DNA from: Acrasis kona
Lineage: Eukaryota; Heterolobosea; Eutetramitea; Acrasida; Acrasidae
Direction of reading: 5' to 3'
Assembly: GCA_026419775.2 (NCBI GenBank)
Contig: JAOPGA020000587.1
Location: forward strand, 1-21,992
Length of the DNA: 21,992 bases
The notes below the pieces were generated by a model. It saw only the letters and a program-made list of their open reading frames with translations, was not told the origin of the DNA and made no database searches. The stretch's first letter is position 1, and the number at the start of each line of letters is the position of its first letter. Position numbers and translations under genes: made by a program. Positions 4,908 to 20,890 of this stretch are shown here, piece after piece.

Positions 4908-4913
4908 AAAAAA
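4908..4913 (-). terminator. Pol III terminator of tRNA-Gly
   Basis: Six A on the plus strand give a TTTTTT run on the transcript strand, 3 nt after the discriminator base of the tRNA. This is the standard RNA polymerase III stop signal. Confidence 0.8.
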
Positions 4914-4916
4914 CTG

Positions 4917-4999
4917 TGCGTTAAACGGGAATCGAACCCGTGTCGCGAGCTTGGAAGGCTAGCATTCTGTAGTGAAAAATACCACTATACCATTAACGC
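4917..4999 (-). tRNA. tRNA-Gly(TCC) with 11-nt D-loop insertion
   Basis: 83 nt. The acceptor stem pairs GCGTTAA with TTAACGC and the discriminator is A. The T arm is ACGGG-TTCGATT-CCCGT with a good B box. The anticodon loop CTTCCAA gives anticodon TCC, reading GGA. The anticodon stem CTAGC/GCTCG has one T-C mismatch. The A box (TGGTATAGTGG) is intact. The D arm is 11 nt too long: after GTATAGTGGTA comes TTTTTCACTAC, then AGAAT. Without these 11 nt the molecule is a normal 72-nt tRNA-Gly. The same insertion occurs in the tRNA-Asp of this window. Confidence 0.9.
4969..4979 (-). other. D-loop insertion, candidate non-canonical intron
   Basis: TTTTTCACTAC on the tRNA strand, between tRNA positions 20a and 21; the exact ends are ambiguous by one or two bases. 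CACTACA here can pair with TATAGTG at the start of the D arm (six of seven pairs, one A-C mismatch), giving a long hairpin in the precursor. It is almost identical to the insertion at 18505-18515. Confidence 0.75.
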
Positions 5000-6176: not shown

Positions 6177-7487
6177 ATGAAAAGCATAGTAAGACATGCG
6201 TGGAACTCGCTCAGGATACCTTCGTGTGAGTTACGGCTAGACATGACATTGCTTTGCGGGCAAGTGTTTACCTGGCAGAAGAGGACTTTAAATGATAACA
6301 CATCAGCATACTTTGGGGTCATCGACGGCTCTGTTGTCGAAATGAGGGAAGAGGAGGACGATGTTTTGTACAGACAGCTACAATTTGATCCTACGGAGAA
6401 GGTTGACGACAAACTCACAGACAAGATAAGATCATTCTTTAATTATAGCGACGACGGTGTCAAACTAAAGACCCTATTTAAAGAGTACGCAGAAATAGAC
6501 CCACATATATTTGCCAGGATATACAAATATTACCCGGGCGTGCGTGTCATTACCCAAGATCCGTTCGAGTGTCTTATATGCTTCATTTGTTCAGCAAACA
6601 ACAATGTGTCCAGAATAACCCTCATGATTACTAGAATGTGCCAAAAATATGGATCATTGATAGGCGAATTAAATGACTCTGACTTTGCTCCGATTAGTTT
6701 CTTTCGGTTTCCAAATCTTCAACAATTGTCCACTGCCACGGAACAAGAGCTTAGAGACCTAGGTTTCGGATATCGTGCCAAATATATTGTAAAAACTGTC
6801 CGAATGTTAATAGAACAACAAGAAAAGATTGGTAGTGACTTCCTCATGGCAATGAGAAATGAACCCGATCGTAATATTGTAATTGATGCACTTTGTAAAT
6901 TTCAAGGTGTAGGTTGTAAAGTAGCGTCTTGTATTGCTTTGTATAGTCTTGAAAAATTTGATTGTGTTCCGCTTGATGTTCATGTTCTTCGTCTTGCCAG
7001 AATCCACTACACAAGTCTTATGAATGAAGATGATATGGTGTTGCTGGATGTGAAGGGATCTGTAAATGCACAAAAGCAAAAAAAGATCATGGACCTGTTT
7101 GTGAGTGTTTTCGGAAAGAATGCTGGGTGGGCTCAAATGGTTTTGTACGGATGTCAATTAGCTGCCTTCAAGACCAGAATGCCTGAGGAATTGAGAAAGG
7201 ACATCTTTGCTGAGGATCAGGCAAAAGCGAAAGAACTTGCAAAGAAAAAGAAAAAGATAAAGAAGGAAAAGGTAAAAGAGGAGATTGAGGAGGATGAAGA
7301 TGAGGAAGATGAAGAGATTGAAGAACAGAGTATTGAGAATTTGGATGTGAAAAGAGAGATTGTCAAGAAAGAGTTGAGCGAGTACGATGAAACATTTAGC
7401 TCTACAAGAGTGACCAGATCAAGATCTAGAGCGTTAAAAGAAATTTATTGCTTAGAGGAGTCACCTCAAAAAAAGATCAAAAAATAA
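6177..7487 (+). CDS. OGG1: 8-oxoguanine DNA glycosylase/AP lyase (OGG1)
   Basis: A 436-residue intronless protein of the HhH-GPD superfamily. Residues 1-120 are the OGG1 N-terminal domain (LLCGQVFTWQK near 25-35). The NNN at 141-143 matches the conserved NNN of eukaryotic OGG1. The helix-hairpin-helix and GPD loop are at 239-268: GVGCKVASC carries the catalytic Lys248, and PLDVH carries the catalytic Asp267, one residue off human numbering. The enzyme removes 8-oxoguanine paired with C and nicks the abasic site in base excision repair. A long charged tail (345-436), with KKKKKIKKEK, an acidic Glu/Asp run and a final KKIKK, is absent from the minimal enzyme and probably provides nuclear localisation. 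The first in-frame ATG is at 6177. Confidence 0.95.
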   Translation: MKSIVRHAWNSLRIPSCELRLDMTLLCGQVFTWQKRTLNDNTSAYFGVIDGSVVEMREEEDDVLYRQLQFDPTEKVDDKLTDKIRSFFNYSDDGVKLKTLFKEYAEIDPHIFARIYKYYPGVRVITQDPFECLICFICSANNNVSRITLMITRMCQKYGSLIGELNDSDFAPISFFRFPNLQQLSTATEQELRDLGFGYRAKYIVKTVRMLIEQQEKIGSDFLMAMRNEPDRNIVIDALCKFQGVGCKVASCIALYSLEKFDCVPLDVHVLRLARIHYTSLMNEDDMVLLDVKGSVNAQKQKKIMDLFVSVFGKNAGWAQMVLYGCQLAAFKTRMPEELRKDIFAEDQAKAKELAKKKKKIKKEKVKEEIEEDEDEEDEEIEEQSIENLDVKREIVKKELSEYDETFSSTRVTRSRSRALKEIYCLEESPQKKIKK

Positions 7488-11903: not shown

Positions 11904-14900
11904 ATGCTAAGACTTTTCGTTCTGCTTGTTGGTATAGTAGGCGTCACACTGGCCGCTACCTGTAATGGTAAGTACAAATGAACAGTCGTTATTCTAATTT
12001 TTGCAGGGGTATCCGATTCAAATTCTACTGTATGCTCCGGAAAAGGCTCGTGCATAGGCACAGATGTTTGCTCGTGCGATACGAATTATTTCGGATTTAA
12101 TTGCCAAACAACTTCATGTTTCAATATAAGCAGTGCAAGCTCTAGCGTCTGTTCGGGTAATGGAACGTGTACAGCATACAACACATGTACTTGTAACATT
12201 GGAGCGGTCGGAGCAGACTGCAGCATTCCCGCTTGTGGCGGTATTGCTTTTAACGATTCAAGAGTCTGTTCAGGACATGGTTACTGCCAAGCAGGCACTG
12301 TTATAAAAAAAGTAGGACCAGGCGGAAGTCCCCGTACAGTCGTTACAAATTACAACACACAAAATACTTTTTTTAATTCATCCATCAGTTCAATAAATGG
12401 AGTCAACGGTATCAATTTGAATGGATTTTGGATAACCAATCGATATGGACTTTCATCTCCAACTACTGGATTAACTCCAACAACATATACCATTGCACCT
12501 GGAGAATACCTCACTCAAGTAATTATTTACTATTATACGGGCTATGACATTATCACTGGCATGGCTTTCACCACTAGCACTGGAGGAAGTGGTATATTCG
12601 GCAACAACAGAGGATCTAATCAGTTTGTATATAACTTTGGACTTTTTGAGTACATTGTCGGATTTTTTGGACAGTATGGATATGCCACGGGTGGTGCCTA
12701 TGATACTCCGGGTATGACATTGATTGGATTTTATACACAGACACCAGGCACTGGATGCGTTTGTAGGGATGGATATGTTGGTATTAACTGTGATGTTGTG
12801 AGCTGTTATGATAAGTACAATTATGATCCTAGTGTTTGTAGTGGAGTCGGTAAATGTATCTTTAATAACAATTGCTCATGTCCAGTTGGGTATTATGGAG
12901 AGCAATGTCAAGATTGGACGTGTGATGGAATTCATCGCAGTCATGCAAACGTTTGTAACAGCAAAGGTACGTGTGTGTCCCCGAACAATTGCGTATATTG
13001 GACGTGTAATGGGATTGATGCGAGAAATGAAAGTGTTTGTTCAGGTTTTGGTTACTGCACATCTACAGGACAATGCTCCTGTTTTGATGGTTACTCTGAC
13101 AATAACTGTTCAACTTTTTATTGTTCAAAAGTAATTAACACCAGTCCATTGGTTTGTAGTGGCACTGGTGATTGTATCTCTTCAAATAATTGTAAATGTA
13201 AAAATGGATATAGTGGTGTTGTTTGTGCAGATTACTCCTGTGGGAACATATCACGTTATAATGTTAGCGTTTGTTCGTCAGTTGGACAATGTATAGCGCC
13301 TAACAACTGCTCTTGTGACAGTTTTGCTACAGGAATGAATTGTGAGATTTATAATTGTCAAGGACTACTTTATAGTCATCCAAACGTATGTAATAGACAA
13401 GGTTCTTGTGTGATTACAAAAAGTATTATCAAACGTCCTGCCTTTGGGGCTAATCGAACTGATGTGCTTGTATTTGACGACTATCAACCAGATAGTGTTG
13501 TGAGCGCATTTGGATTTTATGGTAATTCAATAATTAACGCTGTTCAATTCAATAGAGGCTTAACTAATTATCAGAGTCCTGTTTATTTTTATCCGGGGGA
13601 AGAAGCTACTCAAAGATTCAAACAATTGCTTCCCAGAGAAATATGGACTATTTTAATTATTTGGAGCGATCTTGTAAACAACATAGCGGCAGTGGGTGTT
13701 TCTACTTCGCTGAATAATGGTTATTTGATTGGTACTCCTGCTGCCACCGCTTTAACCTATCCAATACCTCAAAACCAAAGGTTGTTAGGATTTTATGGTC
13801 AGTGGGCGTCGACTGCACCAATTGGTATTTCTAAACTTGGCTTCTATATTGCCAGTTACTCACCTCCGACTTGTATTTGTAGAAATAATTATTATGGAGA
13901 TAATTGTACTTTTGTAGATTGCAATGGTTTACAAAATACTAATCCTAATGTTTGTTCCAGAAATGGAATTTGTTCTGCTTATAACAATTGTACATGTAAT
14001 TATGGAAGTTATGGAAACAATTGTCAGTTTACTACTTGTTATGGCATCAGTAATTTTAATTCATCTGTTTGTAGTGGTAATGGAAGTTGTACTTCTTACA
14101 ACACTTGTGTTTGTAGCTACGGTTTTTCTGGGCCTGATTGCTCCAAATTCTATTGTTCTGGCGTAGAAGCGAGAAACGCATCCGTTTGTAATTCTCATGG
14201 GACGTGTGTCAGTCCTAATGTTTGTAATTGCTACAATAGCTCTTATGGAGGTGTAGATTGTGGTGTTTTTTCTTGTTATGGTGTCATGAACAATGCATCA
14301 ACCGCATGTGGCGGTACTACTGTAGGAAAGTGTATAGATTTTAATACTTGTCTATGTAGCAGTGGATACAGTGGCGATGCTTGTAATATCATTTCATCGA
14401 AAGCTGTCATTTCTCTAATATCGTCTGCATATAACAGTGCCAATATTACATCAAGTCAACTATATAATATGACATTGTTGTTAAAGAATGTAACAAATAG
14501 TTTTACTGATGATTTAAGTACCAAAATACAGGTACTGAACATAATCTCAAACATTACCGCAACTAACCAGTTGTTTGATTATGGTGTTGCTAGCAATTTA
14601 TGTGCCTCTGTGTCCAACATTATATCTACAACTACAGCAACGCCAAATACCACTCTATCTAGCGTTGATGTACAGCTTGCTGCATACTCGACTATCAACA
14701 GCATTGTTAAATACATTGCTGATACGTCGAACCAAAATACTGTTACAATAATAACTCCAGAATTAAAAATAGTTGTGAGTCAAAGCTCTCCTGCAAGCAT
14801 GATTGGCGGTACCAATAGCCAACGGCGATACATCGATCGTGCTCCCATCTACCTTCATGAGTTCTTCTACTAACAGATCTGTATTTGATTTGAATTCAAA

Positions 14901-16854
14901 TATCACAACGATATCCTATTCTACATCCATCAATCCTTTTATCAGCATAAGGAACTCATCTAGCTGGTTGTTTTCTTTACAATTTGTTGACTCGAATACC
15001 AAATTAGGTATGTCTGTCAGTAACTTGAAAGATCCTATTACATTTGGTTTAATATCAATGTATAACTCAAGCAACATACAGATTGAGACCAATTCTAGCA
15101 AGATTGGATTGAGACCAGTATGCTATTATTGGAACACGACTACTTTGAGTTGGCAAACCAATGGGTGCAAACTAAATAGCTCAACAACAAAATACTTTTA
15201 TTGCTCGTGTGACCACACCACAGAGTTCTCTGTGTTCATCGAAAACTCTTTGCCCAATATTAACTTGTTGAGTCTAGAGGATTTGTCATTGATAACAACT
15301 TTAAATAAAGACAATTATACTACTGTTGTAGTTTTAGCGGTCATAAGTGGCTGTTATATATTGGCAGTATTCATCTCGTTTATAATCTACTTGTGTAGAT
15401 TTAAAGTTAAATATGAGTTTAGTATGAAGCAGGGTATATTCCGTAATACCTTATATAAATACATTATTGACTGTAGATATCTTAATTATATACCAAATGT
15501 AACCGTAGGATCTTTTGGTAGAAGTGAAAAAATTTTGATGATTTATTTATACATTCTTGGTACACTTTTAAGTAATGCATTGAGCTTTAATCAGAACAAT
15601 AGTGCAAACATTATCCAATCATTTGCGGCAGGATTCATTTGTAGTCTAGTTGTTGTTCCTTTTATGTTTGTATTTATTTTACTATTTACAAAGACAAAAA
15701 AATTTCAAAAGAAGCAAGAGGAAAAAATTCATCCAACAACAATTGTTGTCTTTGAGCAAGTCACTCCTGTTTTTGAGGATAAAGTTATAATGACTGACAG
15801 TCGTGTACTCCAATTTATTGACAATGAGAGTGCAACCTGTGATAAACATTTACCTACAGTAAAACAGGTAGAGGTTTCTAAAAAATCAAACTGCTTGGGC
15901 GCTGCTATATCAAAAATATTAGATTTTCTTGATAAAGCTACAAACAAAATTGTTGATTTTGTGGTTGATAAGGTTAGAAGACTCACATGGCAAGGTGTAT
16001 TGATGTTTATTGCTTTCTCAATTATTTATTTCTGCTTTGTGACCTTGTTTGTGGCGGCAGCCCCTGTATGTCTTAAATCTCTAACAGATGTTTGGCTATC
16101 CATTATTACTGGTGCATTGATTTGTGGATATGTTTATTCTATTTTCTTTGCGTTTGCATATCTTCGAATTAAGAGATACAAAAACGGAAAGTTAAAGCAA
16201 TGGCATTCGTCGAAAGTTGTAACAGTATTGATAATAACTTTGATTGTCTCCACAATAATATTAAATGCAGCTTTAGCAGCTATTACAGCAACTTTGATTC
16301 CAACTGATTCAATTTGGTTTGCAAGAACAATTGTTATTAATGTATATTTGTTTGCATTGGTTGTGCTACAAGTAATGTGGTTAGTATTCATGAGCATCAA
16401 AAGAAAACCAAAAGTGGATGATAAAACATTGATAGAGGAGAAGACAAATCAATCTCCTTTAATGAAGAGATTATCAATCATCAACCAATCATTGATATGG
16501 ATTGTTCAAAAGGTAAAGAATGATTTGTGGTTTCCTTGGTGGTTTATCTTCTTTATTTACATATTATGTATGGCTTATTGTGCAATATCAATGTTCTTTA
16601 TAATCATTTATGGCATCAAGTTCCAAAATCAAGCAAATCACTGGCTAGGAGCATTCTTTATCTCGGTGTCTCAAGATATGTTCATTAATAGCCCCATCAA
16701 GTATGCAATTACAACATATGTCATATTCCTTGTACTAGAATTTTTTGAATCTCTCTTCTTTGGACTCAAAAAGAACAAAGTTGTATTAGAATTTAATAAA
16801 ACGGAAATAGAAACAGAAAAAGTTGAAGATCTAGAGCTGGTCGATAATCAGTAG
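11904..16854 (+). CDS. EGF/jacalin-lectin/GPS polycystin-1-like membrane receptor
   Basis: Exon 1 (11904-11967) encodes the signal peptide (MLRLFVLLVGIVGVTLAATC). A 39-nt intron follows, then exon 2 from 12007. The ectodomain holds about a dozen EGF-like modules of the form C...VCSGxGxCxxxxxCxCxxGYxGxxC. Two jacalin-like lectin domains are interposed (12305-12755 and 13413-13869), each between the third and fourth Cys of an EGF module. A Ser/Thr/Asn-rich stalk leads to a GPS motif at 15121-15237 (CYYW...W...GC...CSCDHTTEFSV). About nine membrane spans follow. The segments around FGRSEKILMIY...SNALSF and WFPWWFIFFIYI...YGIKF...SPIKYA match the order of conserved blocks in polycystin-1 proteins, but there is no PLAT domain between spans 1 and 2. 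The frame changes at 14803-14820 (see separate entry); joined, the protein would be about 1,635 residues. A role in sugar-dependent adhesion or sensing at the cell surface is inferred. Confidence 0.8.
12305..12755 (+). other. Jacalin-like lectin domain 1 inside an EGF module
   Basis: About 150 residues. Beta-prism-type features: GEYLTQVIIYYYTGYDIITG, a Gly-rich turn, FGLFEYIVGFFGQYG, and a closing strand TLIGFYT. The order (strand with aromatic pair, GxxF, EYI-GxxGxYG, L-FYT) fits jacalin-related lectins. The half-module before it ends VCSGHGYC and the half after it begins CVCRDGYVGINC, so the lectin sits within one EGF module. Confidence 0.65.
13413..13869 (+). other. Jacalin-like lectin domain 2 inside an EGF module
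   Basis: About 150 residues, distantly repeating domain 1: VVSAFGFYGNSIINAVQF, REIWTILIIWSDLVNNIAAV, QNQRLLGFYGQWA and KLGFYI. It follows the half-module VCNRQGSC and is followed by the half CICRNNYYGDNC, the same insertion point as domain 1. Confidence 0.55.
14803..14820 (+). other. Frame change in the receptor gene
   Basis: Upstream the receptor is read in the frame ending ...SPASMIGG, which stops at 14871-14873. From 14803 the continuation (ANGDTSIVLPSTF...) lies one base further on. A single extra base near 14817 would explain the shift. So would removal of GTACCAATAG (14809-14818), which begins GT and ends AG but is only 10 nt. Frames either side are long and conserved in character, so the protein itself is not in doubt. 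Confidence 0.7.
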
Positions 16855-18484: not shown

Positions 18485-18567
18485 TCAGCACTAGTATAGT
18501 GGTCGTTTTCACTACAGAATACAAGACTGTCACTCTTGTGACCGGGGTTCGATTCCCCGGTGCTGAG
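18485..18567 (+). tRNA. tRNA-Asp(GTC) with 11-nt D-loop insertion
   Basis: 83 nt. The acceptor TCAGCAC pairs fully with GTGCTGA and the discriminator is G. The anticodon arm is CAAGA-CTGTCAC-TCTTG with anticodon GTC (reads GAC/GAT). The T arm is CGGGG-TTCGATT-CCCCG with a perfect B box. The A box TAGTATAGTGG is intact. After GTATAGTGGTC come 11 extra nucleotides (GTTTTCACTAC) before AGAAT. Removing them leaves a 72-nt tRNA with a GGTCAGAAT D loop, as in yeast tRNA-Asp. The insertion matches that of the tRNA-Gly here. Confidence 0.92.
18505..18515 (+). other. D-loop insertion, candidate non-canonical intron
   Basis: GTTTTCACTAC, same length and position as the tRNA-Gly insertion and identical in 10 of 11 bases. 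CACTACA can pair with TATAGTG of the D arm (six of seven pairs), which would hide the G18-G19 pair needed for contact with the T loop. Confidence 0.75.
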
Positions 18568-18569
18568 TA

Positions 18570-18574
18570 TTTTT
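18570..18574 (+). terminator. Pol III terminator of tRNA-Asp
   Basis: TTTTT run 3 nt after the discriminator base. Confidence 0.75.
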
Positions 18575-18805: not shown

Positions 18806-20890
18806 ATGGCAGACGCTATGGCATACGCAATCGCATCAGCGATTTATGACAAGATAAATGTTGACCTATCGATGGTTGGTGCAGTGCGTTCCACAGATGG
18901 TAACAAACTCTCATCCTTTGGGGGAGGAAAGAAGTTTCTTGGTTCTAGAAATGAGTTTCAATTAACACCCTCTGGTTCAGGTATGGTAATCAATCTCACA
19001 GACATTGGAAAGAAGTTTGTTAAGAGTTACAACACAAAAAAAACACAGACACAACCAACAAAGCAGACAAATGGAACGAAAGCCAAAGAAAAGAAATATC
19101 GCAGCGACGAATCGTTTGATCAGATCAAAAACGTACTATCATCACACGACAACAAAGTTCGATTGCAGGAACTATTATCTTTACTTGAAGTACACAACAA
19201 CAGAACGTTCAAAGATGAACCTAGTCTGAAGAGTTTTGTACTGAACAAAGGCACCAACAAAGGTCTATTGAGCATCAGCAGGGTCGGTGGTGTGGATTAT
19301 GTCATTTTATCAGGTCCACTCACAACAAGTCAAGCACCAAAGATTTCAGTTCAACCTCCTCCCCAACTAGATCAAAAGATCACAAGAAGAGGCAGAAGAA
19401 ATCAAACGGAGGTCCAAACATCACAAGACAATACTTCTTTGGTAGAGCCCATTCTAGCCAACCACACACCACAGAATGATGTTTTTGAGAGCATGATCTA
19501 TCTATCTACACCTAATGGAACCATACATCACGAATACCTACAAACATTAGATCAAGTGTTCACATCAAGCGTTGGATTAGAAAAAGAGGAGAGATTAGAC
19601 AGCGTACTTTTAGGAGATGAAGAAGTGAAAAATGCACCTCAGCATGGTGTATTGGGCACAATCGTTAGGGACGGTCATCACATTGACGACACCGACAGCG
19701 ACGTCAGCGAAGAACAATACAATTCCGACCATCAACAACAATTAATACATTTAAACACGCATCATCCGTTCTGCATGGTCGCACTGGGCGTTCAAGGATC
19801 TGGCAAATCACACAGCATGGCGACGGTCATTGAATCGTGCATGCTACATGCTCCCCCATACATTCAAGCCAAACCAAGCGTCACCACCATGGTGTTCCAT
19901 TACGATCAAGATCCAGTCAATTACTGCGAAGCATTAACGCTCACCACCCGTAGAAAAGGCATCACTCAATCAGCACCCGTCGTAGAGGACATGATCGTGT
20001 TGGTATCTCCTTCCTTTTATCTTCAAAGAAAAATGTACTATGCCAACGCTCCCAATTGTAGAGTATTGCCTCTGTTGTTCAAGTGGAGCGATTTGAATGC
20101 CGCTCAAATCAAAAACCTAATGAGAGTGAGCGCCGATGACGACATGCCATTGTACATGAATGTGATTTTGGATTTGTTAAGGAGAGCTCAAAAGAGCGGA
20201 GAGAAACCAAGCTTTGATAAATTCAAACAAGACATTAACGACCTCATGTTCAGCACTCAACAAAATTCGGCTCTCACTCAAAGATTGCAATTGATCGAAT
20301 CGTTATTGGACGACAGTCCACAGAATAAAGCATTGAGCTACGAAAACGTGACCAATCTGATCGGTAGCGATGGTAGATTGATCATTGTTGATCTGACCGA
20401 TCTAATGATGTCTGGACCAGAAGCCAATGGTATTTTCCAAGTGGTCTTGTCCAAATTCTTGTCCACTCCCACGAGAGCCAGTAAATTAGCCCTGTTCGAC
20501 GAAGCTCATAAATATCTTCAACCATCTGGTAAGGATGGACTGAGCGCTGCATTGGTCTCTGCGGTGCGTCAAATGCGTCATCATGGCATTCGCATTGCTG
20601 TTTCTACTCAATCTCCAAAAGTACTTCCTCCAGAGTTGTTGGAGCTGTTGACCGTTGCGTTGATCCATAGGTTCCACTCGAGGGATTGGTTTACTTATTT
20701 ACAACAAAAGTTGAGCATATCGGATCAGTGCTTTAGAGAGATTATGGAGTTGAGGACTGGTCAGGCATTGGCATTTACGCCAAAGTGGGGACGTTCTGTG
20801 GAGGGAGATGGGTTTGTTAGAAAAATTCAAATTAGATCTAGATTGACTGCTGATGGAGGAGTGTCCAGAGTGACTGTTTCTGATGGTTGA
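18806..20890 (+). CDS. HerA/FtsK-superfamily P-loop ATPase
   Basis: A 694-residue intronless protein starting AAAG-ATG-GC at 18806. The C-terminal half is an ATPase: Walker A GVQGSGKS (328-335), Walker B LALFDEAH (561-568), then VRQMRHHGIRIAVSTQSPKV (587-606), the arrangement seen in HerA/FtsK proteins, where the STQ strand and an Arg complete the site. The N-terminal half has two regions (about 18-72 and 104-168) shaped like winged-helix domains; the second reads VRLQELLSLLEVHNNRTF then VGGVDYVILSG and could be a LOTUS-like fold. They are separated by a Lys/Thr/Gln linker and followed by an acidic linker. HerA proteins pump or process DNA; a DNA- or RNA-linked ATPase role is inferred, substrate unknown. 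From about 19,660 to 20,600 the GC content is visibly higher than in the N-terminal half. Confidence 0.75.
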   Translation: MADAMAYAIASAIYDKINVDLSMVGAVRSTDGNKLSSFGGGKKFLGSRNEFQLTPSGSGMVINLTDIGKKFVKSYNTKKTQTQPTKQTNGTKAKEKKYRSDESFDQIKNVLSSHDNKVRLQELLSLLEVHNNRTFKDEPSLKSFVLNKGTNKGLLSISRVGGVDYVILSGPLTTSQAPKISVQPPPQLDQKITRRGRRNQTEVQTSQDNTSLVEPILANHTPQNDVFESMIYLSTPNGTIHHEYLQTLDQVFTSSVGLEKEERLDSVLLGDEEVKNAPQHGVLGTIVRDGHHIDDTDSDVSEEQYNSDHQQQLIHLNTHHPFCMVALGVQGSGKSHSMATVIESCMLHAPPYIQAKPSVTTMVFHYDQDPVNYCEALTLTTRRKGITQSAPVVEDMIVLVSPSFYLQRKMYYANAPNCRVLPLLFKWSDLNAAQIKNLMRVSADDDMPLYMNVILDLLRRAQKSGEKPSFDKFKQDINDLMFSTQQNSALTQRLQLIESLLDDSPQNKALSYENVTNLIGSDGRLIIVDLTDLMMSGPEANGIFQVVLSKFLSTPTRASKLALFDEAHKYLQPSGKDGLSAALVSAVRQMRHHGIRIAVSTQSPKVLPPELLELLTVALIHRFHSRDWFTYLQQKLSISDQCFREIMELRTGQALAFTPKWGRSVEGDGFVRKIQIRSRLTADGGVSRVTVSDG

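Follow-up and report, generated by a model that had tools for sequence, protein, structure and literature searches.

Two tRNA genes of different identity, on opposite strands of a stretch of 21,992 nucleotides from the social amoeba Acrasis kona (here referred to as the window, meaning the whole stretch that was analyzed), share a segment in their D-arms, which raises the question of whether this segment is a removable intron of working genes, a mark of decay, or a piece of DNA passed from one tRNA gene to another. The segment, GTATAGTGGTNNTTTTCACTACAGAAT, had two matches in the window with up to three mismatches allowed, at 18494 to 18520 on the plus strand and 4964 to 4990 on the minus strand, against a chance expectation averaging 0.00 (100 shuffles). 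It matched exactly in both tRNA-Asp(GTC) (18485 to 18567, plus strand) and tRNA-Gly(TCC) (4917 to 4999, minus strand); the earlier note was right that two opposite-strand genes share it and that both genes span 83 nt. ARAGORN, in its bacterial-code mode, named the Asp gene Cys(aca) and the Gly gene Ser(act); a poor fit caused by the insertion is apparently the reason. Rfam, for which tRNA was the only family in the window, aligned the whole Gly gene (47.4 bits) and the Asp gene over 18509 to 18567 only (29.1 bits). We identify the genes from their sequences as Asp(GTC) and Gly(TCC) because 71-nt intron-free copies of both have the same remaining letters. The same insertion had been proposed to lie at the same site in both. 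The site is indeed shared, between positions 20 and 21, but the 12-nt insertion itself differs between the two genes, and the GTATAGTGGT and AGAAT that flank it are ordinary exon common to tRNA-Asp and tRNA-Gly. The other arms of both genes are intact. The features of the two genes are as follows.

18485 to 18503, plus strand: 5' exon of tRNA-Asp(GTC), TCAGCACTAGTATAGTGGT (positions 1 to 20), an exact match to the 5' portion of the 71-nt Asp genes that lack an intron
18504 to 18515, plus strand: predicted Asp D-loop intron, CGTTTTCACTAC, 12 nt, site 20/21; only one placement fits, and taking it out leaves the 5' region of intron-free Asp genes (0 mismatches)
18498 to 18501, plus strand: exon half of the Asp central helix, AGTG, with 2 nt between it and the 5' junction (pairing tests; helix in the MFE fold)
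18510 to 18513, plus strand: intron half of the Asp central helix, CACT, with 2 nt between it and the 3' junction (pairing tests; helix in the MFE fold)
18516 to 18567, plus strand: 3' exon of tRNA-Asp(GTC), with the anticodon GTC at 18529 to 18531 (sequence comparison with intron-free Asp genes)
18570 to 18574, plus strand: run of five T's, a likely Pol III terminator (read in the sequence)
4981 to 4999, minus strand: 5' exon of tRNA-Gly(TCC) (sequence comparison with intron-free Gly genes)
4969 to 4980, minus strand: predicted Gly D-loop intron, ATTTTTCACTAC, 12 nt, site 20/21; taking it out leaves the 5' region of intron-free Gly genes (0 mismatches)
4917 to 4968, minus strand: 3' exon of tRNA-Gly(TCC) (sequence comparison with intron-free Gly genes)
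4908 to 4913, minus strand: run of six T's downstream of tRNA-Gly, a likely Pol III terminator (read in the sequence)

Placement of the Gly intron is ambiguous by 1 nt in this gene and is settled by a further copy with one exon difference (L003), which fits site 20/21 only. Elsewhere in the window are an OGG1-like protein (6177 to 7487), two overlapping long ORFs in different frames (12417 to 16854, plus strand), and a 694-amino-acid ORF (18806 to 20890, plus strand) with P-loop ATPase-like motifs by eye and no Pfam match. The first of the overlapping ORFs corresponds to a Jacalin-like/EGF-repeat protein (Pfam) and the second is membrane-protein-like; they are perhaps one intron-containing gene.

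Both window genes could be tRNA pseudogenes whose related insertions descend from a single decayed copy. The earlier note had accepted this explanation in the event that normal Asp and Gly copies existed and no other tRNA carried the segment. Normal copies do exist. In the genome searched (37.35 Mb in 1,021 contigs; the published A. kona assembly is given as 44.02 Mbp in a section of PMC11589745), the pattern GTATAGTGGTN{0,30}AGAAT had 48 matches: 25 insertion-free tRNA genes, 17 with an insertion, and 6 others (two truncated Asp copies and four non-tRNA sequences). The insertion-free genes comprise about 16 Asp and 9 Gly, a split made by Rfam score class and by reading 9 of the 25. The second half of the expectation did not hold: the exact pattern first described had 5 matches genome-wide, 3 besides the window's two, and the 17 insertion-bearing matches have inserts of 11 to 14 nt (one, on contig C880, is a truncated Asp copy). 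The pseudogene explanation fails because the segment occurs in additional tRNA genes and analogous segments in another 20 anticodon families. It can still draw on the intron-free Asp and Gly copies, on truncated Asp copies in the genome, one of them (L257) with a D-loop intron, and on a passage of a review that supposes short eukaryotic D- and T-arm insertions to be pseudogenes (PMC4090602). Three Asp copies (L231, L232, and L257) have truncated or decayed 3' ends.

The window (contig C277) also has a homologous copy on G000:C862, in which stretches are 94 to 99% identical and the Gly and Asp tRNAs lie in the same arrangement; the pair could be either alleles or a recent segmental duplication. 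Between the two, the Gly genes show 2 differences among the 12 intron bases, both outside the paired tetramer, and none among the 71 exon bases, while several indels mark the diverged flank beside them; the Asp introns are identical. Identical exons beside a differing Gly intron and differing flanks, together with the intact arms, are not what decay predicts, and neither the arm loss nor the relaxed exon selection of a tRNA pseudogene was found. The insertion is moreover present in all near-full-length Tyr, Val(AAC), and Glu(CTC) genes of our census (the first 100 of 199 B-box matches), and its pairing is matched to isotype. We consider pseudogenes highly improbable. With intron-free copies in the genome, the spliced Asp and Gly products may not themselves be needed.

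D-arm insertions were found in at least 115 distinct sequences, representing at least 127 gene copies and at least 22 anticodon families, which supports the earlier suggestion of an intron family in D-loops. The families are Asp, Gly(TCC, GCC), Glu(TTC, CTC), Asn, Thr(AGT, TGT), Arg(TCG, TCT, ACG), Ser(TGA, GCT), Gln, Pro(TGG, AGG), Lys(TTT, CTT), Ile(AAT), Tyr, Ala(TGC), and Val(AAC). Gene copies were told apart by sequence plus 12 nt of flank, and their number is not a haploid count because copies on homologous contigs (C277 and C862, for example) could be allelic. The catalogue was built from long-gap pattern searches and small fetched stretches parsed into tRNAs, because the Rfam tRNA search of the genome scored 63 of 2,352 candidates, the window's own genes not among these. 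In the search with gaps of 50 to 61, 100 of 127 matches were listed, and a narrower search, with all of its 83 matches, supplied part of the remainder. An AGTTC B-box pattern gave mostly noise, with 448 matches (100 of them listed) compared to 363 in a reversed control. Long-gap searches favor long genes, so the proportion of genes with an intron cannot be read from them. Excluded from the totals were a Pro and a Val gene with an unparsed acceptor stem (L164 and L080, both with a D intron by reading), four insertions with borders that could not be set (Cys(GCA) L211 and L217; Arg(CCT) L083 and L091), and the truncated copies (Val L085, L118, L183, and L244; Gln L133; and the three Asp copies above). 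The truncated Val and Gln copies are tRNA 3' parts joined to unrelated upstream sequence, some with an anticodon intron.

The insertions are 10 to 28 nt long, most of them 10 to 14 nt, with an A+T content of 76% (115 sequences). They lie at 20/21, at 15/16 (Pro, most Lys, and one Asn), or, in one Arg(TCT), at 16/17 or 17/18; Lys(TTT) and Asn use both main sites, in different copies. The 37/38 location of the canonical eukaryotic tRNA intron is thus not the one used. Removal leaves a standard tRNA, as in the class of bulge-helix-bulge or bulge-helix-loop introns: intron-free sister genes are known in 11 families, and taking out the insertion restores the sister exactly in 58 of 61 cases, while the other three (two Gly and one Ser(TGA)) differ by 1 or 2 exon bases. 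Two or three equivalent placements exist for 43 of these 61 introns. For the other 54 of the 115, the mature form was deduced for the family, no intron-free copy having been read. By reading, a second intron lies at the anticodon in Tyr, Gly(GCC), and 15 of 18 Val copies. Copies of Gln(TTG) (L077, L182, and L202; L107, L111, and L200) have a 19-nt D-loop intron, a 14-nt anticodon-loop intron, or none.

Retention of the segment would disturb the contact of G18 and G19 with the T-loop. This consideration bears on another possibility, that the segment is never removed and the tRNA keeps an enlarged D-loop with an extra hairpin, as the stable D hairpin in the MFE folds of the window's Asp and Gly precursors, where the exon-intron helix forms, might suggest. 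Copies without the segment nevertheless give otherwise identical tRNAs, the length varies from 10 to 28 nt, and copies of one isotype can differ in site. At site 15/16 (Pro, most Lys, and one Asn), the exon tetramer that pairs with the intron is the 5' strand of the D-stem itself, positions 10 to 13, and the D-stem could therefore hardly form before intron removal. Taken together, these observations make a retained loop very unlikely.

The insertion looks like a removable intron because, with few exceptions, its base pairing matches the host tRNA. The pairing joins positions -6 to -3 of the exon, counted from the 5' junction, to positions -6 to -3 of the intron, counted from the 3' junction; each of these 4-base strands ends 2 nt before its own junction. 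An archaeal bulge-helix-bulge is cut 2 nt into the bulge. In a scan of offsets 0 to 5 by 0 to 5, pairing peaked at 2/2 for both the leftmost and the rightmost placement (means of 3.34 and 3.08 of 4 pairs), with 2.5 to 3.0 in the neighboring cells on the helix diagonal and at most 2.25 in off-diagonal cells. With one site per group, ambiguous groups being placed by analogy with Asp, Lys, and Pro, 75 of the 115 introns paired at 4/4 bases, 27 at 3/4, and 13, all Val(AAC), at 1 or 2. Shuffled introns gave 1.89 (SD, 0.09) compared to an observed 3.44. Because group members are related, permutation at the group level is the fairer test: swapping exons between the 24 groups gave 2.28 (SD, 0.16) compared to an observed 3.60, which was reached in 0 of 20,000 permutations, and with ambiguous 20/21-type sites placed rightmost the values were 2.07 (SD, 0.15) and 3.22, again with 0 of 20,000.

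Nine different exon tetramers each have a matching intron tetramer, and in the 11 sister-bearing families alone, 38 introns pair at 4/4 and 23 at 3/4. Asn introns at 20/21 reach 3/4 pairs only, in 9 of 9. The fit of Val(AAC), whose mature form was deduced, depends on a D-loop one base longer than first assumed, a post hoc change that brings the totals to 86 at 4/4 and 29 at 3/4. A 4-bp exon-intron helix at a fixed short distance from the junctions, as in the bulge-helix-bulge and bulge-helix-loop class, was found with 4 pairs in 75 of the 115 introns and with 3 in 27, the 13 Val(AAC) introns being included only post hoc and the four excluded Cys and Arg(CCT) insertions misfitting as placed; the latter possibly use other sites or belong to decayed copies. 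Single-sequence MFE folds contained at least 3 of the 4 helix pairs in only 73 of 115 precursors. The strict hBHBh' form has a 3-nt bulge on each strand and flanking helices; introns of 10 to 12 nt have only a loop beyond the helix (the relaxed form), and their outer helix would be the weak D-stem or absent.

We favor an intron because this pairing geometry is that of the bulge-helix-bulge motif. With a probability of roughly nine in ten, the segment is a 12-nt D-loop intron of a working tRNA gene and belongs to a genome-wide A. kona family of D-loop introns (10 to 28 nt) that, on the evidence of sequence comparison, are best read as substrates of the ordinary splicing endonuclease and not as pseudogenes. 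The pairing rule also agrees with the earlier note's proposal of a shared processing signal, as opposed to random decay.

That note had offered, as another route, the spread of a D-arm cassette between tRNA genes by gene conversion, without the cassette being an intron. Asp and Gly do have a common flanking exon and similar inserts. Their inserts look alike largely because both exons offer AGTG, and by reading, inserts from different isotypes have little in common except the stretch that complements their own exon, differing as the pairing with each exon demands. Such isotype-specific complementarity is unexpected from a copied cassette, and the exon swap lowered pairing in 20,000 of 20,000 permutations. 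A cassette of this kind is extremely unlikely, although introns may still have passed between Asp and Gly by conversion. Ultra-short spliceosomal introns are a further candidate, given that a section of the genome paper reports introns down to 9 bp in A. kona protein genes (PMC11589745). As placed, however, 0 of 115 insertions start with GT and end with AG, and the genes look like Pol III genes; we regard this origin as almost certainly wrong. Group I or II self-splicing introns have a catalytic core of hundreds of nucleotides, in contrast to the 10 to 28 nt here. A viral origin was also considered and rejected: one pattern scan of viral contigs gave 2 matches, neither of them in a tRNA (ARAGORN, by eye).

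Removal as an intron would proceed as follows. The precursor would fold into a bulge-helix-bulge or bulge-helix-loop, a Sen2/Sen34 tRNA-splicing endonuclease would cut both junctions by way of the local helix and not by measuring from the tRNA body, and RtcB would join the halves, after which the normal D-arm could form. The dedicated endonuclease first envisaged is not needed. An exon-by-exon search, which may miss diverged subunits, found two PF01974 matches in the genome, one Sen2-like (best PDB match Sen2, chain 7zrz_BP4, 8.1e-33) and one Sen34-like (best PDB match Sen34, 8iss_C, 1.4e-13), and both proteins match the tRNA-intron lyase family TIGR00324 above the cutoff. RtcB has a full-length match on contig C620 (4.7e-119) and a second, partial match with stops on C179. 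A review passage argues that, in C. merolae, introns outside 37/38 may be handled by the two catalytic subunits alone, the reason given being that yeast Sen54 probably touches the D-arm (PMC3978253).

The share of genes with a D intron was estimated in a census of the first 100 of 199 matches of the B-box GGTTCGANTCC, on contigs C1 to C511. These comprised 53 genes from the long-gap lists (including one truncated Val and three Gln with an anticodon intron only), 13 intron-free Asp or Gly genes, and 34 others read individually: 9 intron-free tRNAs (5 Glu(TTC), 2 Pro(CGG), 1 Pro(TGG), and 1 Gln), 1 truncated Val, and 24 non-tRNA sequences. Among the 74 near-full-length tRNA genes in this sample, 49 have a D intron (2 of them, L080 and L164, with imperfect acceptor stems), 3 have an anticodon intron only, and 22 have none. 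Near-full-length copies carry the D intron in 8/8 Tyr, 12/12 Val(AAC), 3/3 Glu(CTC), and 11/12 Pro(TGG) genes. A repeated non-tRNA sequence with the B-box GGTTCGATTCC occurs nearly identically in four places (L062, L240, L247, and L249). Somewhat less firmly than for the introns themselves, we think it probable that D-loop tRNA introns are the normal state in this heterolobosean nucleus: most tRNA genes would have one, Tyr, Val(AAC), and Glu(CTC) codons could not be decoded without their removal, and the conserved Sen2/Sen34 enzyme would act in the archaeal manner, recognizing the 4-bp exon-intron helix at any location and not by distance from the tRNA body.

Among the listed matches of open-access PubMed Central titles and abstracts (closed-access papers and nearly all preprints lie outside), we found no report of D-loop-type tRNA introns in Heterolobosea. 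In word searches of their texts, the A. kona genome paper (PMC11589745) mentions tRNA solely as part of tRNA synthetases, PMC11702301 lacks the word "intron," and PMC12482156 names only mitochondrial and bacterial tRNAs. Eukaryotic tRNA genes have been described, in a part of PMC8450103, as limited to one intron; passages of PMC4090602 assume that, among eukaryotes, noncanonical introns are uncommon except in red algae and nucleomorphs, and treat most short D- or T-arm insertions as pseudogenes. If the A. kona introns are spliced, this free-living amoeba breaks these expectations on a large scale, and the choice of sites by a eukaryotic splicing endonuclease becomes testable. If they are the normal state, recent intron gain and loss would be visible between copies of one gene. 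The misnaming of Asp as Cys and Gly as Ser by ARAGORN is also a warning that tRNA finders can misname genes with D introns.

In canonical 37/38 introns, bases of the exon loop pair with the intron's 3' part, beside the 3' junction. The A. kona introns resemble these in that exon bases pair near the intron's 3' junction, comparable to the anticodon-intron (A-I) pair named in a passage of PMC4090602, but they lie in a different arm, where the same measured distance from the tRNA body cannot apply. Thermoproteales and other archaea have noncanonical bulge-helix-bulge introns with a 4-bp helix between two 3-nt bulges, and relaxed forms lack some bulges or helices (both from sections of PMC3978253); the most intron-rich archaeon cited in part of PMC8450103 has 71 introns in 46 tRNA genes. 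In contrast, A. kona is a eukaryote with a Sen2/Sen34-type enzyme. The nucleomorphs of cryptophytes and chlorarachniophytes also have short D- and T-arm introns, of 3 to 24 nt in Guillardia theta, but a passage of the same review counts 9 such genes there, one a pseudogene (PMC4090602), whereas A. kona has at least 127 gene copies and no reduced endosymbiont genome. Also among the closest systems are the red algae, whose nuclear tRNA genes, as excerpts of PMC9602550 and PMC3978253 describe, contain D-arm introns in bulge-helix-bulge motifs, with several introns in some genes. A. kona differs in belonging to an unrelated lineage (Heterolobosea), in having more than 100 distinct introns in multicopy families, and in their location mainly at 20/21 and 15/16 and their length, mostly only 10 to 14 nt. 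If D-loop introns are its normal state, they would be an independent and far larger counterpart of the red-algal case.
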